Source: a virus. From it: a DNA stretch of 33,306 nucleotides. Below are positions 8,018 through 33,053 of the stretch, in pieces (the first letter of the stretch is position 1; the number at the start of each line of letters is the position of its first letter). The notes under the pieces were generated by a model that searched no databases, was not told where the DNA came from, and saw only the letters and a list, made by a program, of their open reading frames with translations. The stretch spans positions 1 through 33,306 of the IMG/VR virus record IMGVR_UViG_3300032309_002058; one strand, 5' to 3'. The position numbers were made by a program, and so were the translations under genes.

Positions 8018-8736
8018 GCTTGTTTTGACTCCTCTGTTACTGGTCCACCAGCTACCCATGCACGACATGTGCGGGATGCAGCGCATTTAAAGTCGAATGC
8101 TTCACAATACCCTAGATCGCCAGCCTCGATTGAGCCCCAAGCATCATTTCCTGCCTCGTTTCCAAGCCCAGAAGCAATGCAATCAAGCATCTTTGGAGTC
8201 TGAATAAACACAGCACAATTGCCACATCTTTGCTGCTTAGCGGTCTCGGTATCTACAGACCACTCGTCTGCAATTGCTTGCCAAAACTTATTATTTGGGA
8301 GTGCTGGATTAAGAGGTCCGTACATTGCTGAGTCAATAGCCTTTTTACGATTATCTAGGTTTATAACAATATCTGAGGTAGCAGGAGGGCACCCTTCAGA
8401 TGTTTCAACTGCAGCAGTCATAGATTTGCCGCTCTCTTCAAAAGAGTATGTAACTTCGTAATCTTTTACTTGATCATATTTAAGGTAAGTTTTTGCTTTC
8501 TGAGCCTCGTCAAACATATCTGTAACTACTTTGTAGTCAGCAGGAAGAATGTCCATAATTGAAAGATTCTCAAGGCTAATATCTTCTGGAGACAACGCAA
8601 GCCATTGTCCATCTACTCTTGTAAAAGTACCAAACTTTTCTGTAGAAAATACAGCTTGATAAACAACATTCTCGCCGTTTGCATAGATTAGAGACATGCC
8701 TTCGAGCGGGTAGGACTTAGCGTTAGAAAGTTTCAT
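8014..8736 (-). CDS. Cysteine-rich head-operon protein
   Basis: This 240-residue protein has an unremarkable N-terminal half of mixed beta character (MSLIYANGENVVYQAVF, FTRVDGQWLAL) and a C-terminal cysteine cluster, CGNC at about residue 171, then LDC, GYCEAFDFKCA and RTCRAWV. The spacing of six cysteines suggests a metal or iron-sulphur binding module; the 383-residue protein in the same operon has a shorter cluster of the same general kind. The segment SMTAAVE near residue 104 resembles the proposed protease site. Its start overlaps the preceding 41-residue gene (ATGA) and its stop overlaps the protease gene (ATGA), so the three are likely translated in a coupled way. Similar cysteine-rich pieces occur fused to head proteins in other actinophages. 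Function is unknown. Confidence 0.7.
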   Translation of the reverse strand: MKLSNAKSYPLEGMSLIYANGENVVYQAVFSTEKFGTFTRVDGQWLALSPEDISLENLSIMDILPADYKVVTDMFDEAQKAKTYLKYDQVKDYEVTYSFEESGKSMTAAVETSEGCPPATSDIVINLDNRKKAIDSAMYGPLNPALPNNKFWQAIADEWSVDTETAKQQRCGNCAVFIQTPKMLDCIASGLGNEAGNDAWGSIEAGDLGYCEAFDFKCAASRTCRAWVAGGPVTEESKQA

Positions 8737-8860: not shown

Positions 8861-8980
8861 TTATACCGTCTTCTCTAGGTCTTCTTCTTCTTCTTCTTCT
8901 GGATAATCTTCTTCAGAAGGCTCTGGGTTGTAGTCAGCAGGTAGAGGATCCACAATTTCATACTCAAAATCATCCGACAT
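8861..8980 (-). CDS. Small, very acidic protein of 39 residues
   Basis: The frame reads MSDDFEYEIVDPLPADYNPE and ends in a run of six glutamates followed by DLEKTV. It starts within the last codons of the giant protein (AATGTCGGATGA), so 11 bases are shared. That is the same AATGTC arrangement used at the portal/383 and 383/giant junctions. The glutamate run is encoded by a GAA repeat. No family is recognised. Confidence 0.6.
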   Translation of the reverse strand: MSDDFEYEIVDPLPADYNPEPSEEDYPEEEEEEDLEKTV

Positions 8981-14900: not shown

Positions 14901-17900
14901 TTCAAAAGTATTTGTATCGAACTCAGCGTTGTGTGCAACAAAAATTGCATCTTGTCCAGCAAACTCTGCAAATGCACGAAGCTGTTCTTCAATAGATGGC
15001 TGGCTTGCTAGGAACGCATCGTCAACTGTTTGACCGTCGGAGCTAAGCAGCTTAGCTGGGTCAATAACTTTATTTCCTTCTGCATCTGTTGTGTAATAGT
15101 AATCTCCAAGAGGCTCTCCTGGATTGATGAATAGGTTGATCTCTCCAACCTTTTCTCCGCCTTCCCAAACAGATGCTGCAACCTGAATAGGTGCATCAGG
15201 ATTATCATTATCAAACTTTCCAGTCCCTACTGTCTCAAAGTCGAAGTAAACAACTCGCTTGCCCTTAAGAGCATCTGAGATTGCTTTTCCATCTTTAAGA
15301 TTTGCAAGTTCTGCAGCTTTACCAAAGAATGCTGGACGATTTCCACGATTATAGCTATTAGGCTTTTCTACAAGTACTGCAGGAATCTCTGATGCTGTTA
15401 GATCAGGTGTGTATACCTTGCCAGCTTCTTTTCTTGCTGCTGAAATTTCTGCATTCTTATCTTTATAAGCCTGACCCTTAAGAGTTCCTGGCTCGATACT
15501 TTCGATTGCTGGCTTATCGCCCTTTGCAGGAATGTTTTCTGCCTTTTCTCCACGGAGAACTTCAACAGATGTACCAGTCTTCCAAGACTTAACTTGTGAT
15601 TCATGCCCTGGATAGTATCCACGGATTTGAACCTTCTCTTCTGCTGGCTTTCCATCAGCACGCTCGACCATAACTGTTCCTGGTAGAACTTCTTCAATAA
15701 CAAAGAACTCGCTCAGCTCGCCGTTCTCGTCACGACGGAACGCAATATCGTTTGGCTTAAGATCTTTACCAAGTGCATTAACAACATGAAGAGTATTTTC
15801 GGGTGTGAATTCTTTTAGAGGTGCATCAACTTCTGGAGCAGACCAAAGAGCCTTCTGAGAAGAAAGTTGCTCTTGATACTTTTCCATATCTTGTTCAAAT
15901 TGCTTTTGCTCAGCTGGGTCTTTTAGCTCCCAATCGCCGTTGACCTTTGTAAGCTTTCCGTAATCGCCCATCTTTGGCTGATTGAGTTCAGGTAGATCTC
16001 CCTTTGCAGGAGGAGTTACATCACGATAAACATCGAAGAGAACATCGTCTGCCCAAAGCTTACTTGACTGCTCTACTCCACCAGGATAATAGCCACTTAC
16101 ACGAGAAGCTGGAACCATCTCTCCATTGCGCTTCTTTTCAAATCCTGGTTCTACCTTTGTAACTGTAAAGAAGTCCTTAGTCATAACATCGCCAGCTTTA
16201 AGATCTACTGTCTTAGATGTTGCAATGCGTGGTGTTACTGCTACTGGAGTTGCAGGAATTGCTTCTGGAGTTGCAGGAGTTGACTCCACAGAAGTTTCTT
16301 CTGCACGAGCCTTCTCATCTTCTTCGATTAGTTTATCTTCACGCTCTCTGCGCTTTCTATCACGAATCTCTTTAACTCTTTGCTTTCTTTCTGCTTCAGC
16401 AATCTCATCTGGAGTCAGTGGGTTAGGTTTGCCTCTATTTGCCTCTTCTTCAAGGCGAGCATCCATTTCGTCATAGAGCATGTTGAGCATGTCAACCATT
16501 TGCTCGTTTGTAAGACCTTCTAGGTTTTTTCTAAATTCCTTCATTGCTGCTTGAATGTAAGGAGATTCGTTTTTAAGAGCTCCAGCCCCCCACTTAAACC
16601 ACATGATTCTGTTGATCATGTCTTTGCGTGACCCGAAGTCTGTTACTGGAGGTTCTGGATTTTGAACGGCATCAATTAGCTCGTCAATTGATGGTGGATT
16701 TTCAGGGTCAGCCATAATGTCAACAATGGCTCCCTTAGCTGTTGTATCCGCTGCGTCATCCAACTCTCCTTCAAAAATTACAGCATCTTGTCTAGCCTTG
16801 TCGTACTCTTCTCTTTGTTCTTTAAGTAGCTGCTCAATTCGCTCTTCCGCCTCTGTAAGAGGTGGAGGGTTTTCAATAAGATCTCTAATCTCGGCATCAA
16901 TTTTTTTCTTCTGCTCGTCTGTTAAAGCTGGCCGTGGGTCATCACCTTCTGGAGGTCCTGGAAGTCTATTCCCATCTTCATCAAAGAAACCTGCTCTTTG
17001 ATCTGGTAGAGACTCTGGTGGAAATAGTTGTTCAATTTCTGAAGTAGATTCATCAAGTGAAGGTAGCTTAATTTCTTCTGAAGAAGACTTGCCCTTCATA
17101 TTCTTTTCGTGGTAATCAAATGCTTCTTGTGGAGAGTTGAACTCTACGGATTGTTCTAGAGAGCCACCAAGAAGGAACCAATACTTAGCGCCGGGTTCAT
17201 CTACAAGATCAAGAATTGTTCCATCTTCATTCTGAGCAAGAGTTGAAGACTCTGGATCCTTTGACCAACCTGCTGGCAAATTGTCTGGAAGAGTATTAGG
17301 AATTTGATCCTTATCTTTTGTAATCTCTGGGCCAGCAACATCTGTAGTATCTGGTGCTGCTTCTTCAGGAGCCTCTGGTGTTTCATCAATTGCATCTAGA
17401 TCAAGTCGAGCTTGTCCTTCTCTTTCGAGTAAGTCTATTCCAAATCTATCTTTAAGTTCCTTGAGGAAAGCCTTAGCTTTTTTCTCATCCATGCCAGACT
17501 TTGTTTCAGCCTTAGCATCTGGGTTCCAATCAAAACCGTTGTCATCTAGAAAGTCTTTAACTTCTTGAATTCTAAATGGAGCCTTCTTACCTGAGCGAAG
17601 CTCTAGGCGATCTCCCCTGAGACGATAAGAGACCTGAGGAGCAATTGCATCCTCTTCTGCTTTTTTCTTATCTTTCTCAATCTGCTTGTCTAGCTTTGCA
17701 ATTTCTTTTGCAAGAGTTTCACGAACAGAATCGATTGCTTTGTTTTCAATAACATCTGACTCTGAAAGATCTCGCTTAGCAAGTTCAAGCTGCTCATCTG
17801 CTGCCTTGAGAATGTTTCTTTCATTCTCTGCTGAGCGCTCGCCAGTTCTAAAATCCTTGAAACCAGCACGAGCTGATTGTGTTGGATCTTGCAAGATATC

Positions 17901-20537
17901 GAGTGCATACTGAACACGGGCGGAAGGTCCTGGTTCAAATCCATATTCTCCAAAATCAATTGCTTCTACTTCACTTCCAGCTTCAAAGCCTTCCATCTCT
18001 TTATCTTGATAATCAGAAAGCAGTGGGCTATCAAATGTTGGATCGTTAAAGAAACCAACAAGTCTTGCAAAATCTTTATTTTTCTTGAGCATCTCTTGGA
18101 AACGAGGATCCTTAGATGTTTCATCGATTACATCTTCTGGTCCCCAACCCTCCTTGAGAGGATCTTTTCCAGACTTAGTTCCCTTGCCTTCATCTGGGAT
18201 TCTTGCTGTAGGAGTCTCTGCTACAGGCTCTTCTTCAAGAGCAACTTCGTCTTCTGAATCTACTTCATCCCAAGTGCCGTCAACAACTTGCTGATTAGTC
18301 TCGTCCATGTCGAAGTTACGAAGCTTCATTGCATCACGAAGTACTTCACTTGGTACTTGAATAGTTTGGACTTCGTTGTTTTCGTCTAGATCGCCAAATG
18401 GTGCAAAGCCGTCTTCGTCATACTTGTTTTTAATTGCACCGTTATATGACTCAACTAAATCTTCATCAGGAATATCTGAGTTAGCAATATCTAAAGCTTG
18501 AGCACGCTCTTCTTCGCTAAGAATTCTATTTTGAGGAGGTGTAGAGCCTTCTGGCCATTCAACTGGAGCATCTTCTGTGAGATATGGAGTGTAATCCTTG
18601 CTCTTATCAAACTCTGCTTGCTCTTCTTCTGTAAGTCCATCAATAAGAGCAGGGTATGTAGATGGCTCTGCATCTTCAGTAATCTCTGGTATCTCTGCAA
18701 CAGGAGTTTCCTCTTCTGCAGGTGCTTCTGGTTCTGGTTCTGGAGCCTTTGTTACTTCGTCAAATACTTCACCAAGCTTCTTTGGCTCTCCAACTTTGCC
18801 TTCTTTATCTAATTCACGCTTTGCAGCAAGTGCATCTTCGTTCTCGTTTGTGCCAAGACGCTTATCGTATGCTTGAGCAAGTGCAAGTTCTGCATCTCCG
18901 CCCTTTTCATCAATTGCCTTAAGGATTGCTTCTGCTGGAACTTCTTGCTCTCCACCAGTAGGTTCTCCATCAGGCCCAACTGAATCTGGGAATGTTAAAC
19001 GACCAAGACCAGTATCAAGTGCATCATCAAGACCTTCAATAAGTTCATCACCTTGAAACATGTTTGCAAGAGATGCAGGGTCGTCATACTCAGAGACTGA
19101 GCGATATGGTGCAGTTGGGTCGGTTACTTCGTAAGTATCTTCTGGAACCTTATAGTTAAATCCTTGAGGTGCTTCTGCAGGAGTTTCTGGTTCTGGAAGA
19201 CGTGCAATCTCTTCCTTCTTAAACTTATCTTGCTGATCTACAAGTGGGGTCTCATCTTCAGGAGTGTTGTCATCCTGAGTAATCTTTGCAAGCGGTGTGC
19301 GACCTTCTTCTTCATCAAGGAATCTTTGATCTGTTTGAATTCTTTGCTGTGCATCGTTCCAATTCTGTGTGTAAGCAAATGGAGTGCCACCACGACGTGA
19401 AACTGCGTAGATTGGCTTCTCTGGATCCCAGAACTGCTTACCTGTGTCTGCATCTGTTTCGCCCTGCTTATCAACTGCAGCATCGTCTAAGTCACGCTCT
19501 GCTCTAATCTTGTTTGTTTCAGTTAAGTCTGCAAGAGCACGCTTGTTGTCATCAAACTTAACTACATCATAAGCCTGATCTGTGTACTTAGTTGTTCCCT
19601 GCTTGCTTCCTCTTTCATCTTTCTCGAATGAGCTAGGGCTTTCCATAAATGTAAGATCTGCTTCATCAATGATTGGATCATCCATATCATCTGCTGTTGA
19701 GCCAGCAGGTGTAAAGCCATCTTTCTTTGCTGCAGGACTTGGAAGAAAATTACTTCCTCGTGCCTGACGAATTGGCATTGCAACAATGCGACCATCACCA
19801 AGTTCAACGTCTGCAAGTTGTGGACTAAAGATGTTCTGACCAACTGCACGACCTGAAAGGCTTGCTGTGCTTCCATCACGACGTCTTACCTTGATACCAA
19901 GGCCGCCAAACATCTCAACCCAACGGCCAAGACGATCACGGAGCTGGAGAGCAACACGAGCACGCTTTGCAGCAGCAGAGTTTCCTCCACCATACGCTGC
20001 AGTCATTGCTTCTAAAGGAATGTGACCTTGTGGAAGATTCTCAAGACGTGTAATTGCATAAAGTTTTTCTGGAGAGTTAGCTGGAGCAAGCATTGCAGAT
20101 GCAATAAGTGCTTTAGCGTTTTCATCTGTGATCCGTGGATCATCTGTAACCCATTGAACGTGTGTACGAATCATCGCTGATGCTGTCATCGAGTGTTCAC
20201 GGGTCGAACGTGGATGTGTAAGAGGCAAAAGATCTGTATTAAAAGCTGTTAAGCCAACTACCTTGTTATATTTTGCAAGAGAAATGTAATTTGAAAGCTC
20301 TGTAAGTGCTTGATGCTTACGAACCGAGAATGGAAGACCTTCAGAAGCATGTAATGAGCGAGAAATAACACGGAAAGCTGATCTGCGATTTACTCTACGA
20401 CTATTTGTTGTAAATTCATTAGCTGATTCGATCATCTGCAACGCTTCGTTGCGAATAATGCGTGCCTGTTGACGAGTACTGAAGATAGTCTCGCTTTGAG
20501 AGAGGATGTGAAGTTGTCTTTGATTTTTCTTAGACAT
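8970..20537 (-). CDS. Giant polyvalent protein: exonuclease, helicase, ArdC-like and metallopeptidase domains
   Basis: The ATG at 20537 (MSKKNQRQ) overlaps the upstream stop by 8 bases, giving 3855 residues. Residues 1-122 resemble the N-terminal module of the 383-residue protein and end in HPRST and SMTASAM. A QLRDRLGRW motif and KOW-like barrel follow (about 195-260). Acidic linkers fill 270-1440. Barrel-like modules recur near 1450, 1590, 2063, 2236 and 3536. A DEDDh exonuclease lies at about 1755-1945 (DFETVG 1766, HNAEFDT 1869, HDARTD 1928). A UvrD/Rep-like SF1 helicase spans about 2530-3140 (ALAGTGKTS near 2559, FFDEAQDIN, GDGNQSIYGFRGA, HQSKGLQW, YVAITRAQ). An ArdC-like region lies at about 3197-3476 with LVHELAHSTGHP. 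A second zincin is at the C-terminus (HEIAHF 3801, then GHDAHG). All key motifs are present. It is probably a virion protein delivered with the genome, but this is inferred from position. Confidence 0.85.
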   Translation of the reverse strand: MSKKNQRQLHILSQSETIFSTRQQARIIRNEALQMIESANEFTTNSRRVNRRSAFRVISRSLHASEGLPFSVRKHQALTELSNYISLAKYNKVVGLTAFNTDLLPLTHPRSTREHSMTASAMIRTHVQWVTDDPRITDENAKALIASAMLAPANSPEKLYAITRLENLPQGHIPLEAMTAAYGGGNSAAAKRARVALQLRDRLGRWVEMFGGLGIKVRRRDGSTASLSGRAVGQNIFSPQLADVELGDGRIVAMPIRQARGSNFLPSPAAKKDGFTPAGSTADDMDDPIIDEADLTFMESPSSFEKDERGSKQGTTKYTDQAYDVVKFDDNKRALADLTETNKIRAERDLDDAAVDKQGETDADTGKQFWDPEKPIYAVSRRGGTPFAYTQNWNDAQQRIQTDQRFLDEEEGRTPLAKITQDDNTPEDETPLVDQQDKFKKEEIARLPEPETPAEAPQGFNYKVPEDTYEVTDPTAPYRSVSEYDDPASLANMFQGDELIEGLDDALDTGLGRLTFPDSVGPDGEPTGGEQEVPAEAILKAIDEKGGDAELALAQAYDKRLGTNENEDALAAKRELDKEGKVGEPKKLGEVFDEVTKAPEPEPEAPAEEETPVAEIPEITEDAEPSTYPALIDGLTEEEQAEFDKSKDYTPYLTEDAPVEWPEGSTPPQNRILSEEERAQALDIANSDIPDEDLVESYNGAIKNKYDEDGFAPFGDLDENNEVQTIQVPSEVLRDAMKLRNFDMDETNQQVVDGTWDEVDSEDEVALEEEPVAETPTARIPDEGKGTKSGKDPLKEGWGPEDVIDETSKDPRFQEMLKKNKDFARLVGFFNDPTFDSPLLSDYQDKEMEGFEAGSEVEAIDFGEYGFEPGPSARVQYALDILQDPTQSARAGFKDFRTGERSAENERNILKAADEQLELAKRDLSESDVIENKAIDSVRETLAKEIAKLDKQIEKDKKKAEEDAIAPQVSYRLRGDRLELRSGKKAPFRIQEVKDFLDDNGFDWNPDAKAETKSGMDEKKAKAFLKELKDRFGIDLLEREGQARLDLDAIDETPEAPEEAAPDTTDVAGPEITKDKDQIPNTLPDNLPAGWSKDPESSTLAQNEDGTILDLVDEPGAKYWFLLGGSLEQSVEFNSPQEAFDYHEKNMKGKSSSEEIKLPSLDESTSEIEQLFPPESLPDQRAGFFDEDGNRLPGPPEGDDPRPALTDEQKKKIDAEIRDLIENPPPLTEAEERIEQLLKEQREEYDKARQDAVIFEGELDDAADTTAKGAIVDIMADPENPPSIDELIDAVQNPEPPVTDFGSRKDMINRIMWFKWGAGALKNESPYIQAAMKEFRKNLEGLTNEQMVDMLNMLYDEMDARLEEEANRGKPNPLTPDEIAEAERKQRVKEIRDRKRREREDKLIEEDEKARAEETSVESTPATPEAIPATPVAVTPRIATSKTVDLKAGDVMTKDFFTVTKVEPGFEKKRNGEMVPASRVSGYYPGGVEQSSKLWADDVLFDVYRDVTPPAKGDLPELNQPKMGDYGKLTKVNGDWELKDPAEQKQFEQDMEKYQEQLSSQKALWSAPEVDAPLKEFTPENTLHVVNALGKDLKPNDIAFRRDENGELSEFFVIEEVLPGTVMVERADGKPAEEKVQIRGYYPGHESQVKSWKTGTSVEVLRGEKAENIPAKGDKPAIESIEPGTLKGQAYKDKNAEISAARKEAGKVYTPDLTASEIPAVLVEKPNSYNRGNRPAFFGKAAELANLKDGKAISDALKGKRVVYFDFETVGTGKFDNDNPDAPIQVAASVWEGGEKVGEINLFINPGEPLGDYYYTTDAEGNKVIDPAKLLSSDGQTVDDAFLASQPSIEEQLRAFAEFAGQDAIFVAHNAEFDTNTFEQWAKKLGIDYNIDGVIDTLELAKSITPKGNKLGQVAKRYGIEKTDEEWHDARTDSEVLPAILEGLLGDMKPDNREFDVATRLAEFEAKRSSYNEKLEAFKKQEAELAVAEAIKRGMSGEQVSVDEMLGKTGTTSGFGTEGSTDSAEEYTYESIFGGKINNSWIEDDENTFVVDEGGATVGDIKVGDFVPAEGGGYHEVVDLQQDPEDPNGTIVIRRIVGTGDLYSTRVTEKKSPGIGWSNGKVLKGTLRRRNELAGKTPAEVRDLVSKPVVVAPEPKTKPKTPTPKGKKSITPEETQSIVSDAIETITSGAKPDATVEEAVKGLPVDDTTKAAVLAVRPDASINHLSADGVALKVGDKVRGVKHGRIGEVRAILTTYGPRGYKNYVKVKFDDAAKRENISAGSLQIINPDDGGGFFVDTTPPTVGEPVNPNETPKTAEELTSLLTGDVADNTPTVEIPEEPVVMDAEERSRVWKENEEKRMKYALDLNYRQVSPEALKELTAAVQDISQYEKGHQRSVTAFMPSLSTGKPVKATYTFVKPNKKELEYREDFEPDDIIVKIGPSNTEAVIKSDGKIFYFDNPSIPNWWFSVRSPDLYTAIEKKDEVTLPLGEKPDLQNMGMVSFNREFPIESAGSPDDETDPDFIVDSPDVEPKGIKPTKQQQAVIDAVVAGKDVIVQALAGTGKTSTLKMAAKAVAEKDPDKTILYIAFNKAVAAELNADPDRPSNMIARTNTQVAWHHSPKWMQKRSFDKTAIAFPTDIADHLEFGPVKVTEIKKDGEKVEATLSSKDVVSVIRQAVTAFAQSADDKIMPKHFTDNFVDIPEVFIDYANRWWDDISSPTGRLAMNQSFPEKYVQLNGIDVTMSPSEAGANPATMIPAADIIFFDEAQDINDVAGDWVRKQNVQKVFVGDGNQSIYGFRGAKDQLDTLEGAEKLQINESFRFGPNIAAPANRFLAVAGKPERVVGAGKDQGKVVESLDEMPDPDAVLVRTNGGGFKAMLEYLEQGKTVGISQSTKTRLEEVIDTTSWLMGGKKGSKPAKYNAEIGMYDSWEELSTAVREGKARPVKAFYDLVTQNGMQSIRDILDRVVVEREETEESKAARKSYVPIKIDDALDGSSGDLGSKLKYEIKGNTIIVTGYTTPDLAEKLRNAGMPARKTGEKAKNKKGETVDVWVRDKVIEDDLERTDQLNKIKKSLSGIIDSASADVVVTTAHQSKGLQWNKVRIYDDFWGPKFNKETGEIDMPAPEELRLAYVAITRAQKEVYLGPLSWVNDYTSDEDEQATPSSLILQANNIQTDPVPVTPEEFDNEVQETAKKIDPATQKIADAIIAALEAGTAPWRKPWTGGGFLPTSVATGKMYEGTNVLVLWAAQERNGWSDNRWLTYKQAEKLGGNIKRGEKATSIIHWTPKFKKVEQPDGTTKEVFIYTPPKVINVFNVEQAEGINLPPLVKGEPIPVSQAEQTLLDTYKDRPEIFYKSQDGAYYSPVTDSIHLPLREQFGAEQDLFETLVHELAHSTGHPSRVNRKDLTDNYGTHKASRGEEELIAEISVALVAARLGVEIDFGNVASYAKSWLGALKNDPQMIIKAAKQAQKAVDHMLGKQEEPAKFDEEGNPVEPVGEGVGSEGLTGEEISEEVDSSPKPTSKGYIRSEIDPTDLKVGDRLDISGKKRVVAINIGEDNVIASTKVIGSRGGGIESFDKNKKIFVWRKEDSVGSEGKTGDEIAEDAGLKPESTPEPNVGEQGKTGEEIAQEDDIKPAGIKGGHDLSPREAFTKAVNRTDVDIKKVYGAEEKYQPQLQKDMEPPAAPRRADFQDSDSYIAAHKKYVKDFNNYYLERSTNIQSSIGEKHLDGSPKGVQNYVKDIITADWFVEAFGDGGQLGRPPVTLFSGKSHGGKYTYGFKNGSFISSLKINRLLAKSEPNILHEIAHFATTISVAEGHDAHGVEYRMNYIFITDKVLGREAAENLKESYRKANLNVG

Positions 20538-21681
20538 TATCTTCTCTGTTTCTAGGTAATAAGTCTGAATCCATGCTTTCATAACCTAGTATTGCAAAAT
20601 TAGATGCTCTCTTAAATGGATCTTCATTATTACGAACTCCACGAAGCCAAGCAGCACGAACTGCATGCTCTGCTTCGTAACCAAATCCAGAAAACTCGGC
20701 TAGAGAAAGAATGGCGTGCTCTGGAGAGTCGTACTCTTCTTCATCTTGTAGTTCTACAGTGAGCTCTTGTTCAAAACGATACTCCTGTGCAATCTGTGCA
20801 AGCTCTTCTACTGATTGGATTTCTGTTCCGAGTTTCTCGGCTTCGAGAACTCCGACATCAACCACCCCATCTGGGATAACAGCGAAGCGACACTTACCCT
20901 CGTCTTCGACTTCCATGTCGATGATTCTGCATGCGCCGTTACCCATGTATAGAACACAAGAAGAGCACTTGACTCCGATACCTCTGACATCGTTTTCTTC
21001 GGGTGGTGTGTATCCTGCCCAGATTCCTGTTGCATCTTCATTAAACTTTCCATACTTCTCAGCGATCTCAATGAGAGCATTAGCTAGGTCTGATTCTTCT
21101 GGAACTAATCCAGCCGAAGCAGTGATTGAGTTGTTCTTTTTTGTTGACCGAGGATGCTTTGCTGGGAGTAAGTCATTATCTGACTTATAAGCTGAGTTCG
21201 CTGGCTTACCAGACTTAAGCAACTTAAGAAACGCATTAACACGAGCCATAGCCCAACCGTTGCGAGTCATACCTGGGCGATGTGATACTGAATAAGCACC
21301 AGCACCACGTCGATAAACAGCCTTAAGCATTCCTAAGGTTGCACGACGACCTTCTCTTGCTTTTTCGTTATGAGTCTCTACTTTTTCTTTAAGAGACTTT
21401 TCTACTGCTTTAGAAAAAACTATTTTACGAGATCCTGATGCAGAACCTTTTTTGTTTTTGCTAGAGCCTTTAATTCTGTCTTTTCTAGGAGCAGGAGTTT
21501 GAGAGATAGTGCGCTTTTTCTTTGCTGCAAACTCTGAATCATCTGAAGCATCGACAGGAACGCAGTTAGGAACCATTTTGCCGTTCTTTTCCTTCATTCC
21601 AACTTGCTTGTAACCTTCCCAGCACGGATCTCCCGCTGATACAAGTGAAGTAACTACATTATCGATTGGCTCGTTAGACAT
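20530..21681 (-). CDS. 383-residue head-operon protein with DUF5824-like and cysteine modules
   Basis: The start is the ATG at 21681 (MSNEPIDN), inside the last codons of the portal gene (AATGTCTAA). Residues 18-44 carry DPCWEGYKQVGMKEKNGKMV and PNCVPVDA, a short block common in phage head proteins. Residues 88-160 match what I recall as a DUF5824-like domain, with YRRGAGAYSVSHRPGM and WAMARVNAFL. NDLLPAKHPRST (169-180) is followed by SITASAG (185-191), a candidate protease site. Four cysteines at about 239, 242, 251 and 264 suggest a metal-binding knot. The very end repeats DSDLLP. It lies between portal and giant protein, where other actinophages have MuF-type fusion proteins, but I see no MuF core. 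It is likely a virion or assembly protein; its role is unknown. Confidence 0.72.
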   Translation of the reverse strand: MSNEPIDNVVTSLVSAGDPCWEGYKQVGMKEKNGKMVPNCVPVDASDDSEFAAKKKRTISQTPAPRKDRIKGSSKNKKGSASGSRKIVFSKAVEKSLKEKVETHNEKAREGRRATLGMLKAVYRRGAGAYSVSHRPGMTRNGWAMARVNAFLKLLKSGKPANSAYKSDNDLLPAKHPRSTKKNNSITASAGLVPEESDLANALIEIAEKYGKFNEDATGIWAGYTPPEENDVRGIGVKCSSCVLYMGNGACRIIDMEVEDEGKCRFAVIPDGVVDVGVLEAEKLGTEIQSVEELAQIAQEYRFEQELTVELQDEEEYDSPEHAILSLAEFSGFGYEAEHAVRAAWLRGVRNNEDPFKRASNFAILGYESMDSDLLPRNREDNV

Positions 21682-28469: not shown

Positions 28470-28472
28470 TTT

Positions 28473-28664
28473 TTACCCCCTCTCTTTTATAGTGTAAGCA
28501 AAAGTAAAGACGGAGAAACAACCAACCCAGTCGCCCCACCTCTTACCAAAATGAATGGTCTTCCAGTTAGTAGCCACAATGTTAAGCCAAAGGGTATAGC
28601 GACCAACCCCAATAGTTAGATGAGCTAAATAAGTCGGTAGCCCAAAGCCAAGATCAAACATCAT
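28473..28664 (-). CDS. Unknown aromatic-rich protein, 63 residues
   Basis: The frame MMFDLGFGLPTYLAHLTIGV is rich in Trp, Phe and Gly (RYTLWLNIVATNW, FGKRWGDWVGCFSVF). It could be membrane-associated but has no clean membrane helix. Its ATG lies within the last codons of the 75-residue gene, directly after the GGGGTAAAAA element. Its own stop sits in the next copy of the same element. Confidence 0.6.
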   Translation of the reverse strand: MMFDLGFGLPTYLAHLTIGVGRYTLWLNIVATNWKTIHFGKRWGDWVGCFSVFTFAYTIKERG

Positions 28665-28881
28665 TTTTTACCCCTTTGGGAAACCTTACTTCTTTTATCT
28701 GAACAAAACCTTCTTTATCTTTAAGCCAGTCGCAAGCGACCTCCCAAATAAAATCTCGCTTGCCTTCTATGACTCTACTTCTTGGAGGGCGTTCAGGGTT
28801 AGATGAGTCTCCTAGTCCAGTCTGAACAGGAAAATGATGAGTGTCTATGTCTACCTCGATAGTGATAAAGGCTTTAGTCAT
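28654..28881 (-). CDS. Unknown small protein, 75 residues
   Basis: The protein MTKAFITIEVDIDTHHFPVQ, a linker with GDSSNPERPPRSR, and a WEVACDWLKDKEGFVQIKEV segment give an alpha/beta outline. The ATG follows GAGGGGGTTCTAGT, which includes the stop of the 64-residue gene before it. No domain is recognised. It is a middle gene of the tight 27947-29310 cluster. Confidence 0.6.
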   Translation of the reverse strand: MTKAFITIEVDIDTHHFPVQTGLGDSSNPERPPRSRVIEGKRDFIWEVACDWLKDKEGFVQIKEVRFPKGVKNDV

Positions 28882-29072
28882 ACTAGAACCCCCTCTAATC
28901 CTTCATCAGTTCCAAAGTCGGTAGGGCTTACCAACTCCAACCACTCTTTGAATAAATAAACTAAACCCTCTTGCTCTTGTTGCTTCTGTTCGTATAGTTC
29001 TTCATAAAGAGAATAAGCTTCTCTTTCCCAGTTATCGGCAAGAGGTAAATCTTCTAATAGATAGTTATGCAT
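28878..29072 (-). CDS. Unknown acidic protein, 64 residues
   Basis: The protein MHNYLLEDLPLADNWEREAY continues as a Glu/Gln-rich helix (EELYEQKQQEQEGLVYLFKE) and ends with DFGTDEGLEGVLV. It is strongly acidic and probably helical. It overlaps both neighbours by a few bases. The family is not recognised. Confidence 0.6.
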   Translation of the reverse strand: MHNYLLEDLPLADNWEREAYSLYEELYEQKQQEQEGLVYLFKEWLELVSPTDFGTDEGLEGVLV

Positions 29073-29310
29073 TGTCTATCTCCTCATACTCGGCATTTAT
29101 TAACATTAGTTCGTTGCTAATTCGTTGATCTTCTTCACCACGAGCATAAAACTCTTTAGCAATTTTTTCGTAAGCGTCTTTTAGTAGCCCCTTCTCAAAA
29201 CCTGTTGGCTTCCATTTAGGAACTTTAGGGTGTTGAAATGTGGCTCGCATAACCGCATAGAGTTCATCATCATTTAGCATGACTGGCTGAGGTTTTCTAA
29301 GTCTAGGCAT
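29065..29310 (-). CDS. Unknown small protein, 81 residues
   Basis: The start at 29310 (MPRLRKPQPV) is preferred because it follows GAGAGGGGGAGAGCAA; the longer frame runs back into the upstream gene. The sequence has a helix DDELYAVMRATFQHP and then LLKDAYEKIAKEFYARGEED, which is compact and helical. It lies downstream of promoter P7 in the same transcript as the 51-residue membrane protein. No domain is recognised. Confidence 0.62.
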   Translation of the reverse strand: MPRLRKPQPVMLNDDELYAVMRATFQHPKVPKWKPTGFEKGLLKDAYEKIAKEFYARGEEDQRISNELMLINAEYEEIDNA

Positions 29311-29324
29311 TTGCTCTCCCCCTC

Positions 29325-29480
29325 TCACGGATAGAGCAGGTCTTTGCAGAACCCGCTCATTTGCTCGACTGGAACCTTGCATTGTTCAGGTGTTGTAGCG
29401 TCAAACGCCCAAGCAATAAGGGCGAGCGCAATTAGTCCAACTACGATACGGCGTCTAATAAACTTTGCTTCTGTTTTCAT
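29325..29480 (-). CDS. Small single-helix membrane protein, 51 residues
   Basis: With the start at 29480, MKTEAKFIRRRIVVGLIALA has a basic front, a membrane helix (continuing LIAWAF), and a short outer part with two cysteines (PEQCKVPVEQMSGFCKDLLY). The ribosome site is TAGGGAGAAA. An in-frame ATG at 29513 (MAKGAKESREK) lies 7 bases after the -10 box of promoter P7, exactly where a leaderless message would begin, so two products may be made. Function is unknown. Confidence 0.62.
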   Translation of the reverse strand: MKTEAKFIRRRIVVGLIALALIAWAFDATTPEQCKVPVEQMSGFCKDLLYP

Positions 29481-29498
29481 TTTCTCCCTACTTTCTTT

Positions 29499-29549
29499 GG
29501 CTCCCTTAGCCATTAAGTAAATACTACACGACCTTCCTGCTTTTTTCAA
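29499..29549 (-). promoter_or_regulatory. Cassette promoter P7 with leader hairpin
   Basis: On the minus strand: TTGAAA (29544-29549), 17 bases, TAGTAT (29521-29526), with CAGGAA (29534-29539) 7 bases before the -10 box. The hairpin GGCT-AAGGG-AGCC (29499-29511) follows at about the transcript start. Confidence 0.75.
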
Positions 29550-29557
29550 CTTCCCTG

Positions 29558-29758
29558 CTATTCGGCGTGTTGCTTCTCTTTATTCTTTTTAGCGTCTGCG
29601 AGTAATTCCTCTAGGCTTCGTGAGTCCACTCTAAATGCTTCCCAATTTTGAGCGAGGACTTGTTCTTTAGACACGGCACGACCTTTCGTTGCTTTCTTTG
29701 AGGCGTGCTTGATACGACCTAGCGTTCCAAGAACTGCACTATCGGGTAAGAACTTCAT
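29558..29758 (-). CDS. Unknown basic protein, 66 residues, probably leaderless
   Basis: The protein MKFLPDSAVLGTLGRIKHAS continues with a lysine-rich stretch (KKATKGRAVSKEQVLAQNW) and ends as a charged helix (SLEELLADAKKNKEKQHAE). It is basic overall and could bind nucleic acid, though no motif is seen. The ATG stands 6 bases after the -10 box of P6, and there is no ribosome site, so the message should start at the start codon. Actinobacteria commonly translate such leaderless messages. Confidence 0.65.
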   Translation of the reverse strand: MKFLPDSAVLGTLGRIKHASKKATKGRAVSKEQVLAQNWEAFRVDSRSLEELLADAKKNKEKQHAE

Positions 29759-29793
29759 ACCTGTATCTTAACAAACCTTCCTGCACTTTGCAA
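29758..29793 (-). promoter_or_regulatory. Cassette promoter P6, leaderless
   Basis: On the minus strand: TTGCAA (29788-29793), 17 bases, TAAGAT (29765-29770), with CAGGAA (29778-29783) 7 bases before the -10 box. The first 20 bases, GTTGCAAAGTGCAGGAAGGT, are also found in promoter P1 on the other strand. No leader hairpin is possible because the gene starts at once. Confidence 0.78.
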
Positions 29794-29817
29794 CTCTCGG
29801 CGTGTCGTATCCTTAAA

Positions 29818-29873
29818 TAGATTTTGTCAGGTAAGTCTGCTATGATAATACTACCGAACAAGGGAAACGGTAG
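29818..29873 (+). promoter_or_regulatory. Cassette promoter P4 with leader hairpin
   Basis: TATGAT (29841-29846) with CAGGTA (29828-29833) 7 bases before it; the -35 position holds only TAGATT. The leader hairpin CTACCG...CGGTAG (29851-29873) has an 11-base loop containing AAGGGAA. AGAAGGGAGAAAAA and the ATG follow. Confidence 0.68.
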
Positions 29874-29885
29874 AAGGGAGAAAAA

Positions 29886-30077
29886 ATGCCAAAATTTGAT
29901 GTTGAAGTTTCAAGCAAAGGTTGGGGTGACCCTCGATTTATTCTTATAGATGTTGCAAACGCTATCCGCAGTGCTGGCGCAACAACTGAAGAACAAGATC
30001 AGTGGTTTACTGAGGCTACTTCGGGTGACGCTGAAAATGTGCTTCGCACCGCAATGAAGTGGGTGAAGGTCGCCTAA
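29886..30077 (+). CDS. Unknown small protein, 63 residues
   Basis: The protein MPKFDVEVSSKGWGDPRFIL continues with helices IDVANAIRSAGATTEEQDQW and GDAENVLRTAMKWVKVA. It is a compact alpha/beta outline with no known motif. The ribosome site AGAAGGGAGAAAAA is strong, and the gene is a self-contained unit between promoter P4 and the hairpin at 30084. It is transcribed divergently from the leaderless 66-residue gene, with the two promoters about 50 bases apart. Confidence 0.7.
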   Translation: MPKFDVEVSSKGWGDPRFILIDVANAIRSAGATTEEQDQWFTEATSGDAENVLRTAMKWVKVA

Positions 30078-30083
30078 CTGATT

Positions 30084-30111
30084 GAGGGCAAGGACTTCCC
30101 CCCTTGCCCTC
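30084..30111 (+). terminator. Perfect 10-base stem, probable terminator
   Basis: GAGGGCAAGG pairs with CCTTGCCCTC around ACTTCCCC. Only TCTC follows, so release may be weak; the stem may also protect the 3' end of the message. Confidence 0.55.
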
Positions 30112-30139
30112 TCTCGGCGACACGCCAAGAAAGTAAATA

Positions 30140-30168
30140 CAAGAAATATCAGAAAAGTCAGATAGAAT
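30140..30168 (+). promoter_or_regulatory. Cassette promoter P5 (weaker match)
   Basis: TAGAAT (30163-30168) with CAGAAA (30150-30155) 7 bases before it. The -35 position is CAAGAA. No leader hairpin is seen. The ribosome site CAAGGGAGAAAGACA and the zinc-ribbon peptide follow. Confidence 0.5.
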
Positions 30169-30200
30169 TACTACAACAAGCCAAACAAGGGAGAAAGACA

Positions 30201-30308
30201 ATGGCTAGAAAAGCAGTAATGATTTTCATCAACTGTTGGAAATGCGGAAAAAAGTTTCAAATAAATCAAGACCATTACTACAACGGCGCAATTTGCGAGG
30301 ATTGCTAA
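30201..30308 (+). CDS. Zinc-ribbon peptide, 35 residues
   Basis: The peptide MARKAVMIFINCWKCGKKFQ with a closing CEDC gives two CxxC pairs about 19 residues apart, the layout of a small zinc ribbon. Such peptides often bind nucleic acid or partner proteins. The ATG follows AAGGGAGAAAGACA. Its stop codon overlaps the stop codon of the HslV-like gene read from the other side, leaving no room for a terminator between the two. Confidence 0.68.
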   Translation: MARKAVMIFINCWKCGKKFQINQDHYYNGAICEDC

Positions 30309-30874
30309 TCTCGGTATTGAGTCAAGAGGTAAAAAGGTTCGGCAGTCTTATTATCGAACTTAGCTGAAACGGCGAGCGCAGTTTTGATCGTGGCTCTTGC
30401 GGTAGTAAGAGTTCTATTCTTGCCCTCTGATAAAGCATTGAGCGCACCCAAAGCAAAGTTAGCACCTGAACCTATTGCATAAAGACCAGTCGTATCGTGA
30501 CACCAAGAATAATCTTCGCCTATCTCGTAAATGGTTCCATTTATTAAAACCATAATCTGACTTTCTTGGTCGCCATCTTTTGAGTAAGAGGCTTCCTCAA
30601 AACATTTTTTAAGTTCAGGGATAAACACCGCAGTCATAAACTTATCAAGTTTTACCCCTAAAGTTGATCCCGTGCAAGGCGGTGCCTTAAAAACATGAGT
30701 CATTAAGTTGATTGCTCTAACATCTCCCGCAACACCTAATACAAAATTACCGCTCTTAAAAACTTTACCAGCGTCCTTCGGTAAAACATAAGTCCTACCA
30801 TCTTCCTCGGTAACTCTTGAGTCATAGCCAACAACAGCCCAGCCATCACCTTGAACACTCGCTATTGTTGTCAT
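30305..30874 (-). CDS. HslV/proteasome-like N-terminal threonine hydrolase
   Basis: The 189 residues begin MTTIASVQGDGWAVVGYDSR. After removal of Met this exposes Thr1, as in HslV (MTTI-SV---G--V-G-D). The matching Asp17 is in GYDSR, a lysine for the Lys33 position is in LPKDAGKVF, and GNFVLGVAGD and AIGSGANFALGALNA match the family's glycine loops. The length is close to that of HslV (about 175). The fold is a proteasome-type Ntn hydrolase, which cuts peptides inside a ring. No HslU-like ATPase is present in the window. It could be a degradation ring using a host unfoldase, or a related amidase or self-processing enzyme. The ATG follows GGGGTAAAAAATT, behind the 88-residue gene. The family call is good; activity is inferred. 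Confidence 0.78.
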   Translation of the reverse strand: MTTIASVQGDGWAVVGYDSRVTEEDGRTYVLPKDAGKVFKSGNFVLGVAGDVRAINLMTHVFKAPPCTGSTLGVKLDKFMTAVFIPELKKCFEEASYSKDGDQESQIMVLINGTIYEIGEDYSWCHDTTGLYAIGSGANFALGALNALSEGKNRTLTTARATIKTALAVSAKFDNKTAEPFYLLTQYRD

Positions 30875-30886
30875 AATTTTTTACCC

Positions 30887-31153
30887 CTAGTAACGATTAT
30901 CCCACAGCTCATCACGCAAAGCGTATTCATAACGCTCGGCATTACTACTGTTTTTAGTTGAGATGTCCTCATCTTGAATTAAACCATCAAGTGAAAACAC
31001 GGCGGTGCATTCGGGTTCCTCAAACATAATAATTAATTTTGTATCTGCCTCGGCGGGGTCATCAACAATAGCCACAACAAACGGAGCTGAACTCCCATTA
31101 GGGTGATAAACCTTCTGAACTATTTGCATACCTATAAAGATACCTTGATCCAT
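30887..31153 (-). CDS. Unknown small protein, 88 residues
   Basis: The protein MDQGIFIGMQIVQKVYHPNG has a beta-rich front (PFVVAIVDDPAEADTKLIIM, FEEPECTAVFSLDGL) and a charged helical end (NAERYEYALRDELWDNRY). It looks like a compact small domain but matches no family I know. GGGGGTAAAAATCAGGGGTT stands before the ATG. Its stop TAG is 13 bases before the HslV-like start, so the two are probably co-transcribed; a functional link is only suggested by this. Confidence 0.62.
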   Translation of the reverse strand: MDQGIFIGMQIVQKVYHPNGSSAPFVVAIVDDPAEADTKLIIMFEEPECTAVFSLDGLIQDEDISTKNSSNAERYEYALRDELWDNRY

Positions 31154-31182
31154 AACCCCTGATTTTTACCCCCATACAATAG

Positions 31183-31207
31183 AAAAACCCCCACCTCTCG
31201 GCGGGGG
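31183..31207 (-). terminator. Terminator of the DUF3846 gene
   Basis: On the minus strand CCCCCGCC pairs with GGTGGGGG (one G-U) around GAGA and is followed by five T. Confidence 0.82.
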
Positions 31208-31221
31208 CTCCTCTACTACTT

Positions 31222-31560
31222 TTATGCTGAGAGAACTTCGACTAAGTGTTTCGCATAGTCGGGGTCTAGCCCTAGTTGCTCTCCTTCTTCGTCTGTTGCT
31301 CCCGCAAGTACTATGTCCCCCAAGATTACATCAGGGAAGTTAGGGAAGTTGGCTAACCAAATTTCGGTAGCCTTCTCATTTATCGGAAGGTCGTGAAGTT
31401 TTCCTTCTTCATTCATAAACATTGTGTAGCCACTCTGTAGAGTTGCTACCTCAATCAAACCGCCAACGGCACTCTGTAGAGTCAATAACTCGTTGCTGTC
31501 TTCTAGTAGGTCGATTACAGTTGCTGTTCCCTCTGTTGTAACTTTTACCGCTGTTTTCAT
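31222..31560 (-). CDS. DUF3846 family protein
   Basis: The 112 residues contain LLTLQSAVGGLIEVATLQSG, YTMFMNEEGKLHDLPINEKA and a late GDIVLAGATDEEG, which is the order seen in DUF3846 proteins, common on actinobacterial and firmicute phages and plasmids. The family has no settled biochemical role. It has its own cassette: promoter P8, a perfect AGGGA-loop hairpin, the ribosome site AGAGGGAAA and a strong terminator. That independence suggests it is expressed under separate control from its neighbours. Confidence 0.78.
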   Translation of the reverse strand: MKTAVKVTTEGTATVIDLLEDSNELLTLQSAVGGLIEVATLQSGYTMFMNEEGKLHDLPINEKATEIWLANFPNFPDVILGDIVLAGATDEEGEQLGLDPDYAKHLVEVLSA

Positions 31561-31575
31561 TTTCCCTCTTTTTCT

Positions 31576-31627
31576 CTCGCTCCCTGCGAGGTAGGATAAT
31601 CATAGCACATCTTCCTGACTTTTTCCT
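31576..31627 (-). promoter_or_regulatory. Cassette promoter P8 with AGGGA-loop leader hairpin
   Basis: On the minus strand TATGAT (31599-31604) has CAGGAA (31612-31617) 7 bases before it; the -35 position is the poor AGGAAA. The hairpin CTCGC-AGGGA-GCGAG (31576-31590) starts at the expected transcript start. Its stem differs wholly from those of P1 to P3, while the loop is the same. Confidence 0.75.
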
Positions 31628-31629
31628 AC

Positions 31630-31884
31630 TTATCGGGGTTCTTGATTTTCCTCAATTAGAAAGGCAAACCCTGCGCCATTTCCTTCCTCGTCCTGAGAAA
31701 GGATAAGACCTAACCCATTATCAAATTCAAGTATCGGCACAGCGTGGTGGTTACTAAAACCCCAGCCCATTAAGTCTTCTGCTTCATCTTCGGTAGCGCT
31801 TCTAATACTTACGAGCTTGGCACCTACCAATTGTCCCCACTCTTTATTTAGATACTCGGTAAGTTGAATTACATTGTTCGTCAT
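31630..31884 (-). CDS. Unknown protein, 84 residues, with a related gene at the window end
   Basis: The protein MTNNVIQLTEYLNKEWGQLV leads into VGAKLVSIRSATEDEAEDLM and a beta-rich end (LEFDNGLGLILSQDEEGNGA, GFAFLIEE). The last part matches the partial gene at 33238 (DEPTGAGFSFTLIQDEDED), showing that the window holds two members of one unrecognised family. The ATG follows GAGGGGTAAAA. The gap before it is structured and holds no other gene. Confidence 0.65.
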   Translation of the reverse strand: MTNNVIQLTEYLNKEWGQLVGAKLVSIRSATEDEAEDLMGWGFSNHHAVPILEFDNGLGLILSQDEEGNGAGFAFLIEENQEPR

Positions 31885-32076
31885 TTTTACCCCTCTTGTC
31901 GATTTAAACCTAGCTTAGCTAATCTCTATAATAATTACAATTAGACACACCGCACCCCTGCTAGGGAGAGCAAGGGGCGGTGCGATAAGCACAAGTGCTT
32001 ATCTCAACGGGGAGCAGTATAGGGAATTACGCTCGACCCGGAGAGATAATACTATCATAAACGGCATAGCTACTTT
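31885..32076. other. Structured intergenic region, candidate small RNA or leader
   Basis: No gene over 22 codons is found in these 190 bases. On the plus strand a TACAAT box (31936-31941) is followed by an imperfect stem, CGCACC/GGTGCG outside TGCT-AGGGAG-AGCA (31951-31984), and by a near-perfect palindrome GATAAGCAC-AA-GTGCTTATC (31983-32002). On the minus strand TATTAT (31929-31934) could drive the 84-residue gene. The plus-strand loop AGGGAG matches the leader hairpins elsewhere, but no plus-strand gene follows it. Confidence 0.4.
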
Positions 32077-32388
32077 TTACCCCCGACTATTAAAACAATC
32101 GGGACACTCCACATCTCTCATCACGCCAGCTACATCAGCTTTCATCTTTCCAGCTCCATAGCAAGTTTCGCAGTTAGGGTCGCCTTCATCTAGAACACCT
32201 ATGTGGTTTGAAACGGCAACAACATCCCAGCCGTAGTGTTCCTTCATTAAAGTCCCAGCTACTCTAAGGCAAGCATCTTCATAGACTTCGCCTTCTTTTA
32301 CCTGATCTTCGGGGACGCCAACCGTAACCATCATTGAAAAATAATCTCCAATAAACATTACGGTGCGTGTATCCATAATCTGATCCAT
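32077..32388 (-). CDS. Small DnaJ-type zinc-finger protein, 103 residues
   Basis: Residues 1-72 form an alpha/beta part (TVMFIGDYFSMMVTVGVPED, then YEDACLRVAGTLMKEHYGWD), and the end carries CETCYGAGKM...CPDCFNSRG. The CxxCxGxG followed by CxxC is half of the repeat seen in DnaJ central domains and is expected to bind one zinc. There is no J domain, so it is not a chaperone of that family. The ATG lies behind GGGGTAAAAA and a second purine stretch, AAAGGGAAAAG. Function is unknown. Confidence 0.68.
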   Translation of the reverse strand: MDQIMDTRTVMFIGDYFSMMVTVGVPEDQVKEGEVYEDACLRVAGTLMKEHYGWDVVAVSNHIGVLDEGDPNCETCYGAGKMKADVAGVMRDVECPDCFNSRG

Positions 32389-32432
32389 AACTTTTCCCTT
32401 TCTTTTTACCCCTATAAGTTTATCCTATAAAG

Positions 32433-32458
32433 AAAAAACCCCCGCCTTTTAGCGGGGG
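32433..32458 (-). terminator. Terminator of the 30-residue gene
   Basis: On the minus strand CCCCCGC pairs with GCGGGGG around TAAAAG and is followed by six T. Confidence 0.82.
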
Positions 32459-32473
32459 CTTCTCTCTGACTAC

Positions 32474-32566
32474 TTAGTCATTTAGACCTAGCTCATCTAA
32501 CAAATCAGCCATAACAACATCTAAATCTTTTGCCACGGCATCTAGTTTTTCTTGGAGTGTTCTCAT
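32474..32566 (-). CDS. Small acidic helical peptide, 30 residues
   Basis: The frame MRTLQEKLDAVAKDLDVVMA continues to DLLDELGLND and is a regular amphipathic helix. Despite its size it has its own promoter (P9), a leader hairpin, an AGGGAAAGAG ribosome site 13 bases upstream of the ATG, and a strong terminator 16 bases after its stop, so it is very likely a real unit. Such peptides may act by binding a host protein, which is speculation. Confidence 0.62.
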   Translation of the reverse strand: MRTLQEKLDAVAKDLDVVMADLLDELGLND

Positions 32567-32594
32567 TTATTTATTTAACTCTTTCCCTAGTTAA

Positions 32595-32648
32595 TCGGTT
32601 ACTTTAACCGAGTAACTTTATTGTATTCGATTATCCTGACATTTACAA
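32595..32648 (-). promoter_or_regulatory. Cassette promoter P9 with leader hairpin
   Basis: On the minus strand: TTGTAA (32643-32648), 17 bases, TACAAT (32620-32625), with CAGGAT (32633-32638) 7 bases before the -10 box. The leader hairpin TCGGTTA-AAG-TAACCGA (32595-32611) starts about +2; here the loop is AAG and an AGGGA stretch follows the stem instead. Confidence 0.72.
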
Positions 32649-32667
32649 CTTAAGCCTCGGCAAGTCT

Positions 32668-32799
32668 TTATTTAGGGCAATCGGTATAAGGATTTTCGTT
32701 CCCCTCGTTGTCCTCGCAACTGCACCAGTTAAATCTTTCTACCTGCGTAGCGTGAGTTAATTCCGCTAACTCTCCCCAGCTTATCGAGTCTTGATCCAT
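32668..32799 (-). CDS. Unknown peptide with CSC motif, 43 residues
   Basis: The peptide MDQDSISWGELAELTHATQV has a cysteine-bearing end (FNWCSCEDNEGNENPYTDCP) with three cysteines, possibly a small metal site. The ATG follows AGGGGTAAAA, which contains the stop codon of the 83-residue gene, so translation is coupled. The opening MDQ is shared with the 88- and 103-residue proteins. The family is not recognised. Confidence 0.6.
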   Translation of the reverse strand: MDQDSISWGELAELTHATQVERFNWCSCEDNEGNENPYTDCPK

Positions 32800-32801
32800 T
32801 T

Positions 32802-33053
32802 TTACCCCTGCCCTTCATAGTAGTTTGGAATACCTTCGTCCGTTACTTCCCAACCTGTCCCTGCCTCGTTCATAGTGTTTTCCTCGATAGTCCAATCCGC
32901 TTCGTCCCAACGAACCTCGTCCGTCATAACCTTGCCGATTTCATCTATGAACCTCTGCATAACCGCTTCAGCTTCTTGCATACTATTCGCCTTAATTTCC
33001 ACCATTGAGATAGTTAGGTCTTTCCCTGTCGAGTAATACTTTTCTCTTTCCAA
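32802..33053 (-). CDS. Unknown protein, 83 residues, TTG start
   Basis: The start codon is TTG (MEREKYYSTGKDLTISMVEI), behind GGGAGAGGTAAAAAA. The protein has an alpha/beta pattern with a helix MQEAEAVMQRFIDEIGKVMT and an acidic end (WEVTDEGIPNYYEG). The first half resembles small phage proteins with a strand, then a long helix, then a strand, but no family is recognised. A TTG start and a long folded leader both hint at restrained translation. Confidence 0.62.
   Translation of the reverse strand: MEREKYYSTGKDLTISMVEIKANSMQEAEAVMQRFIDEIGKVMTDEVRWDEADWTIEENTMNEAGTGWEVTDEGIPNYYEGQG

Follow-up and report, generated by a model that had tools for sequence, protein, structure and literature searches.

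Described proteasome homologs

The group I proteasome homologs, which include HslV, BPH, AAH, CPH and PPH, were described by Fuchs, Alva and Lupas in 2021, who also listed homologs that phages spread (PMC8665760). Neither a function nor an AAA+ partner is known for the new homologs of this group, none of which was found to co-occur with such a partner, and the same authors linked the ability to work without an unfoldase to a pore loop of greater length (PMC8665760). BPH has no known unfoldase, and recombinant BPH was inert on standard peptides and on casein (PMC5777263). Phage HslV without HslU is already known, having been reported from the Salmonella jumbo phage pSal-SNUABM-04 and from T5-like phages (PMC7823757), and public records name relatives of the protein analysed here protease or HslV. 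A search of the literature brought up no study of what proteasome homologs of phages do.

The window and its phage type

The window analysed here is a whole virus record of 33,306 bases, which is probably a fragment. Its gene order was reproduced in five IMG/VR contigs (G001–G005) of 105, 135, 134, 106 and 123 kb and also in a complete genome of 129 kb, that of 'Actinomycetia phage DSL-LC01'. The window can be assigned to an actinophage type of approximately 105–135 kb, of which it is a piece. WhiB-like genes, which are an actinophage marker, were present in all six of these long kin genomes. Together with the predicted host of DSL-LC01, Actinomycetia (PMC10611076), they make it likely that the phage of the window has an actinobacterial host, probably a freshwater one.

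The peptidase gene and its product

The open reading frame running from 30874 down to 30305 on the minus strand starts with ATG and encodes a predicted proteasome-like Ntn threonine peptidase of 189 amino acids. The original prediction had placed an HslV/proteasome-like hydrolase in this interval without naming a strand; on the plus strand the same interval contained many stops, and no reading frame passed through it. In the window's phage type the gene was located among short genes.

Comparison of the window protein with PHROG 1040 ('peptidase HslV family') gave an E-value of 2e-25, and Pfam Proteasome (PF00227) gave 18.1 bits, below its cut-off of 22.4. A sequence search of the PDB returned BPH as the top match (E 7.6e-6) and HslV as the next. 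An AlphaFold2 model made with 24 homologs (pLDDT 83.4, pTM 0.82) had an Ntn fold, in which helices 52–61 and 74–94 precede the second helix pair. A fold search against the PDB placed BPH (5OVS, 5OVT, 5OVU) first with a Z score of 19.7, and HslV and 20S beta followed at 18–19.5; with a spread of about 1 Z these matches count as a tie. The viral model closest to that of the window protein belonged to a phage protein, likewise uncultured, that is annotated as HslV and shares 38% identity with it. The general features of proteasome-like proteins, an Ntn sandwich, an N-terminal Thr, Asp17 and Lys33, were all found in the window protein. Between near relatives dN/dS was 0.03–0.12, which indicates purifying selection and hence a functional protein. 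Given the match to PHROG 1040, the BPH match in the PDB, the Ntn model, the fold matches and dN/dS, the reading frame and its proteasome-type relationship are real and far beyond chance, and the hydrolase of the original prediction is borne out.

The N-terminus of the protein is MTTIASVQGDGWAVVGYDSRV. Its MTT start leaves no space for a propeptide, and by the MetAP rule removal of the initiator Met would expose Thr2 as the N-terminus, so that the threonine is predicted to be exposed as had been supposed.

Family position

Naming the protein HslV did not survive comparison with curated models. Both NCBIfam HslV models were missed by more than 100 bits (TIGR03692, 27.0 against a cut-off of 157.75; NF003964, 29 against 137), and HMM scores for the window protein were 77 bits with AAH, 20 bits with HslV and 9 bits with 20S beta. 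Profile-profile comparison of the window family gave the same order, with E-values of 1.9e-30 for AAH (177 columns), 5e-12 for HslV and 4e-6 for 20S beta. The sequences used as AAH were so called by their taxonomic spread (Azospirillum, Rhizobium, Frankia, Streptomyces and some Firmicutes). When the window-family profile was run against Actinomycetota genomes it matched a Frankia AAH (98 bits, E 1.9e-27), and no match was found in 395 other Actinomycetota genomes.

Phylogenetic analysis placed AAH and the window clade together, apart from HslV and 20S, with support of 97/91 (94/92 in a second tree). The window sequences lay outside a separate group (97/70) that was made up of cellular AAH and some phage relatives. 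The window clade was recovered as a single clade with weak support (68/63 in the first tree and 90/93 in the second). BPH was represented in the tree by a single 174-residue fragment on a long branch; in profile comparison it had 36 bits to the window profile and 13.8 bits to the AAH profile. The groups sampled were AAH, HslV, 20S beta and BPH, and of these AAH stood nearest to the window protein in both profiles and trees; the window clade may belong to CPH, a group beyond this sample. Membership of PPH was rejected, as PPH has approximately 140 residues and no helix H2 (PMC8665760) and the window protein has 189 residues and both helices. Membership of 20S beta was rejected also; TIGR03690 gave no match at E-values up to 1, and there is no room for a propeptide.

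AAH resembles the window clade in size, in the missing propeptide and in being partly phage-borne. It differs in that AAH occurs in cells, whereas the window clade was seen solely in phages and viral contigs and was absent from the cellular genomes covered by a pattern scan. The homologs of pSal-SNUABM-04 and the T5-like phages fall in PHROG 1040, as does the window protein, but these phages infect Gammaproteobacteria, which can encode HslU themselves, and the T5-like protein that was sampled (Sw2) grouped with AAH, outside the window clade.

Active site

All catalytic codons are on the minus strand. Thr2, the predicted nucleophile (mature Thr1), is encoded at 30869–30871, Asp18 (proteasome D17) at 30821–30823 and Lys37 (proteasome K33), which in the window clade is preceded by a short insertion, at 30764–30766. 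Gly50, the equivalent of oxyanion-hole G47, is encoded at 30725–30727, Ser136 (S129) at 30467–30469, Asp174 (D166) at 30353–30355 and, from the alignment, Thr177 (S169) at 30344–30346. An alignment of 24 homologs showed Thr2, Asp18, Lys37, Gly50, Gly135, Gly137 and Asp174 to be invariant, which agrees with the earlier statement that Thr1, Asp17, the Lys and the glycines are kept. Across the window clade position 129 was Ser except for one Thr, and position 169 was Thr or Ser; in divergent groups positions 129–169 are alignment-dependent.

In the AAH sampled, G47 is replaced by Ser or Asp, S129 mostly by Cys and D166 mostly by Ser, whereas the window clade retains Gly, Ser and Asp. This AAH pattern (Ser/Asp 47, Cys 129, Ser 166), an unpublished criterion derived here from 16 sequences, was absent from the window protein. 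HslV (ClpQ) shares with the window protein the fold, the MTT start, T1, D17, K33 and S129, but the sampled HslV has Cys where the window protein has D166. BPH has the same residues as the window protein at S129, D166 and S169, although identity between the two is only approximately 18%, and at the positions compared both 20S beta and BPH agreed with the window clade. By overall sequence the clade therefore appears to stand beside AAH, with a catalytic set that reads as the 20S beta/BPH type.

The H1–H2 (pore loop) stretch had 27–32 residues in the window clade, compared to 24 in HslV and 29 in BPH. HslV forms a dodecameric double ring that HslU activates, and BPH assembles into tetradecameric rings around an acidic cavity.

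Relatives and distribution

One scan of viral contigs revealed 43 relatives with identities from 98% to approximately 32%, and 15 more peptidase copies were present in 14 contigs retrieved through another gene, that of a MoxR-like ATPase. The named phages with a relative were DSL-LC01, the Arthrobacter phages Pitbull and Hum25 and the Microbacterium phage Pumpernickel. A relative was also carried by two records labelled 'Caudovirales sp. ct2KA10' (assembly name LanE43-AprE7); these correspond to E7 and F5, two phages of Planktophila that are in culture (PMC10202952), the assignment to F5 being putative. The relative adjoined an HNH gene in Pitbull and lay among tRNAs in Pumpernickel. When the window-family alignment was used for a pattern scan of 84,980 genomes, no relative turned up in a cellular one, and plasmid searches found none.

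Two variants of the gene were observed among the relatives. One contig, G432, had beside its copy of the window type another peptidase gene (bases 327–854, L267), whose product is divergent but belongs to the clade (142 bits) and retained the GSG and D..TGG motifs. The DSL-LC01 peptidase (L002, 12001–12690) had an extra Lys/Arg-rich C-terminal tail of approximately 35 residues that was absent from the others.

The upstream gene and local signals

A small gene at 30887–31153 on the minus strand ends 12 nucleotides ahead of the peptidase gene and encodes 88 amino acids, or 80 if the start at 31129 is used; it has homologs in kin, most of which start eight codons later and have approximately 80 amino acids. 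These homologs adjoined the peptidase gene in five kin contigs and in L022–L024, and were one or two genes away in L025–L028. None was found in DSL-LC01 or in more distant members of the clade. The 88-residue protein that had been proposed as a possible partner is therefore a real upstream reading frame, but as an obligate partner it was rejected, its adjacency being conserved only in the closest lineages. A model of the 80-residue form (pLDDT 78) gave no significant fold match.

Just upstream of this two-gene unit is a G+C-rich hairpin followed by a T run (31183–31214, minus strand). A second copy lies at 32434–32465; both are intergenic, are 84% identical and read CCCCCGCC...GGGGG. These copies look like terminators and may separate small transcription units. 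A further element, GGGGTAAAA, is present at 30879–30887 (minus strand), 4 nucleotides before the peptidase ATG, and is common to other genes of the region. Nine copies were found in the window (28471–32808), where 0.15 would be expected; every one is on the minus strand, and most of them immediately precede a start codon. Each of G001–G004 had 22–25 copies, which in G002 were nearly all within 59.7–77.9 kb, and there were none in G005 or DSL-LC01. The element is possibly a phage-specific translation or transcription signal. A promoter scan gave a result no better than shuffles.

Search for an unfoldase

No HslU-like ATPase was found within the window, which confirms the original prediction on this point. 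The proposed search of the rest of the genome was made through kin, and none of 12 kin records had an HslU/Clp-type (AAA_2) match over the cut-off; the control was positive in 14/14 control genomes. No unfoldase of this type was seen in the six long kin genomes or in the complete cultured relatives. Among sampled Actinomycetota, HslU was over its cut-off in one of 246 genomes and HslV in one of 242, this being the same genome (G177). As judged from these genomes of the likely host phylum, the idea of a host ATPase as partner is not supported for HslU. 20S beta was over its cut-off in 55 of 119 Actinomycetota, and none of these genomes was smaller than 1.9 Mb.

Two complete phages with a relative were analysed for AAA-type genes. 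Pitbull had no AAA_2, AAA_5 or AAA match, and in Planktophila phage E7 (OX376640) the sole AAA-type match was a DnaB-like helicase. The P-loop genes tested in G002 were a MoxR-like AAA_5 gene followed by VWA_CoxE, an ABC/GNAT-like gene, a collagen-like gene and AAA_24. The MoxR/CobS-like AAA+ has 352 amino acids and a VWA (CobT-like) partner, and in kin it lies approximately 9 kb from the peptidase gene. Of 18 contigs fetched through this ATPase, 14 also carried the peptidase gene. A match reaching the C-terminal end of the ATPase was present in Gordonia phages such as Sixama, Forza and GMA2, which had no peptidase match, and a 137.5 kb contig (G439) likewise had the ATPase without the peptidase. 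With Pitbull as the reverse case, each gene occurs without the other; an obligate partnership was rejected, and by their occurrence the two genes are not strictly coupled.

The MoxR/CobS-like and VWA/CobT-like gene pair is at L051:6166–9221 (G002, 66166–69221). The C-terminus of the ATPase, ...KPAKI, was strongly conserved, and ...PAKI was invariant in most actinophage homologs; the tail, like the gene, was also present where the peptidase was not. A 74-residue protein encoded at 29325–29549 (minus strand) ends in ...DLLYP, with similar ends in G001 and G002, probably by coincidence. This LLYP end was considered as an HbYX-like docking tail and was set aside because a hydrophobic segment of the protein looks membrane-like and because such short motifs occur on unrelated proteins of the same genomes.

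Head proteases

A 1610-residue head protein encoded at 3254–8086 (minus strand) contains an S78-type prohead protease region. It had 204 bits with PHROG 18402 ('head maturation protease') and 19.7 bits with Pfam Peptidase_S78, just below the cut-off of 21, and the same place in DSL-LC01 is annotated as 'capsid maturation protease'. With a separate prohead protease the Ntn protein is unnecessary as a head protease, and a role in capsid maturation was rejected for the window's phage, in which the peptidase gene lies elsewhere. In Planktophila phage E7 (L270) the peptidase gene is at 7500–8036, between the portal gene and structural-looking genes, and a search for another head protease recognised none.

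The head region of the window also encodes a giant protein of 3870 residues (8970–20582, minus strand) in which helicase and anti-restriction (PHROG 7245) regions occur together with others that resemble an exonuclease; this is perhaps a polyvalent protein delivered with the DNA.

Proposed function and alternatives

The reading we prefer, to which we give an even chance of being correct, is that the gene encodes an active, ring-forming threonine peptidase of group I, beside AAH, that works without a dedicated AAA+ unfoldase as BPH appears to do. As no motor is recognisable in the virus or in its likely hosts, the enzyme probably cuts without an unfolding machine. Removal of the initiator Met would make Thr2 the N-terminal nucleophile, which Asp18 and Lys37 together with Ser136, Asp174 and Thr177 would activate. 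By analogy with HslV and BPH, the subunits may stack as two rings that enclose the active sites. Proteins of host or phage that are unfolded, disordered in part or tagged could enter this chamber unaided or via housekeeping chaperones. The phage would probably make the peptidase early or in the middle of infection and so remove specific host or phage proteins. Intact catalytic residues are no proof of free peptidase activity, since recombinant BPH was inert (PMC5777263). We also count against this reading the MoxR-like AAA+ that lies near the peptidase gene in kin and the fact that the window is a fragment.

The chamber might instead borrow a host AAA+ unfoldase during infection, be it ClpX, ClpC, Mpa/ARC or another, a possibility that we regard as doubtful but deserving of some weight. 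To our knowledge, all other AAA+-linked peptidases of the proteasome fold work with a ring ATPase; sub-threshold matches to the HslU model were present in 246/246 Actinomycetota and may represent ClpX-type proteins, and the 55/119 genomes with 20S beta probably have Mpa too. However, HslU itself is nearly absent (1/246), 20S beta was not found in the genomes below 1.9 Mb, which is the size range expected of streamlined freshwater hosts, and HslU-type docking is not expected to suit the tails of ClpX or Mpa. The phage's own MoxR/CobS-like AAA+, acting as unfoldase with its VWA partner, would fit the AAA_5 and VWA_CoxE domains, the shared genome region, the 14/18 co-occurrence and the ...KPAKI tail. 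We consider it decidedly unlikely, as the ATPase is without the peptidase in the Gordonia phages and G439, Pitbull shows the reverse, and we know of no MoxR/VWA pair that serves as a protease cap.

Other alternatives concern the activity itself. Proteasome-like proteins are functionally diverse, connectase being a ligase (PMC8665760), and BPH is without general activity (PMC5777263), so that the window protein could be a specialised Ntn hydrolase, such as a specific amidase or a connectase-like protein ligase, and no general peptidase. This is improbable in our view, as the entire 20S beta active site is conserved, including S129, D166 and S169, which are lost in AAH, and as the predicted model has both helices H1 and H2, which connectase is without. 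A head-maturation (capsid) or virion-packaged protease is suggested by E7 and F5, where the relative directly follows the portal gene and another head protease was not recognised. The S78-like region of the 1610-residue protein and the position of the peptidase gene elsewhere, among short genes, make such a role very unlikely for the window's phage, and the neighbours of the gene in Pitbull (HNH) and Pumpernickel (tRNAs) indicate a location that is not tied to the head module. We see hardly any chance that the protein disables a proteasome-like ring of the host, by joining it or by competing with it: approximately half of the sampled Actinomycetota have 20S beta and some have AAH, but the score to the 20S beta profile was only 9 bits, and a poison subunit would have no need of the full conservation seen in the active site.

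Extending the preferred reading of a peptidase that acts without an unfoldase, one could speculate, with considerable reserve, that the clade is a virus-restricted lineage near the base of AAH which has a complete 20S-beta site and serves actinophages in degrading selected proteins of the host, such as defence or transcription factors, where that host is without HslUV and, if streamlined, apparently without a 20S proteasome.

Significance of the clade

The present analysis adds a clade of actinophage proteins that branches basally beside AAH, has the catalytic set complete and is represented in phages under culture. The clade, which is widespread in freshwater actinophage contigs, fills a gap, as Fuchs et al. 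had been unable to find AAH in any phage specific to Actinobacteria (PMC8665760). The cultured, complete phages (Planktophila E7 and F5, Arthrobacter Pitbull and Hum25 and Microbacterium Pumpernickel) are laboratory systems for the proposed unfoldase-free viral proteolysis and, if the preferred reading is true, the clade would reveal how proteasome-like rings act when no AAA+ motor serves them.
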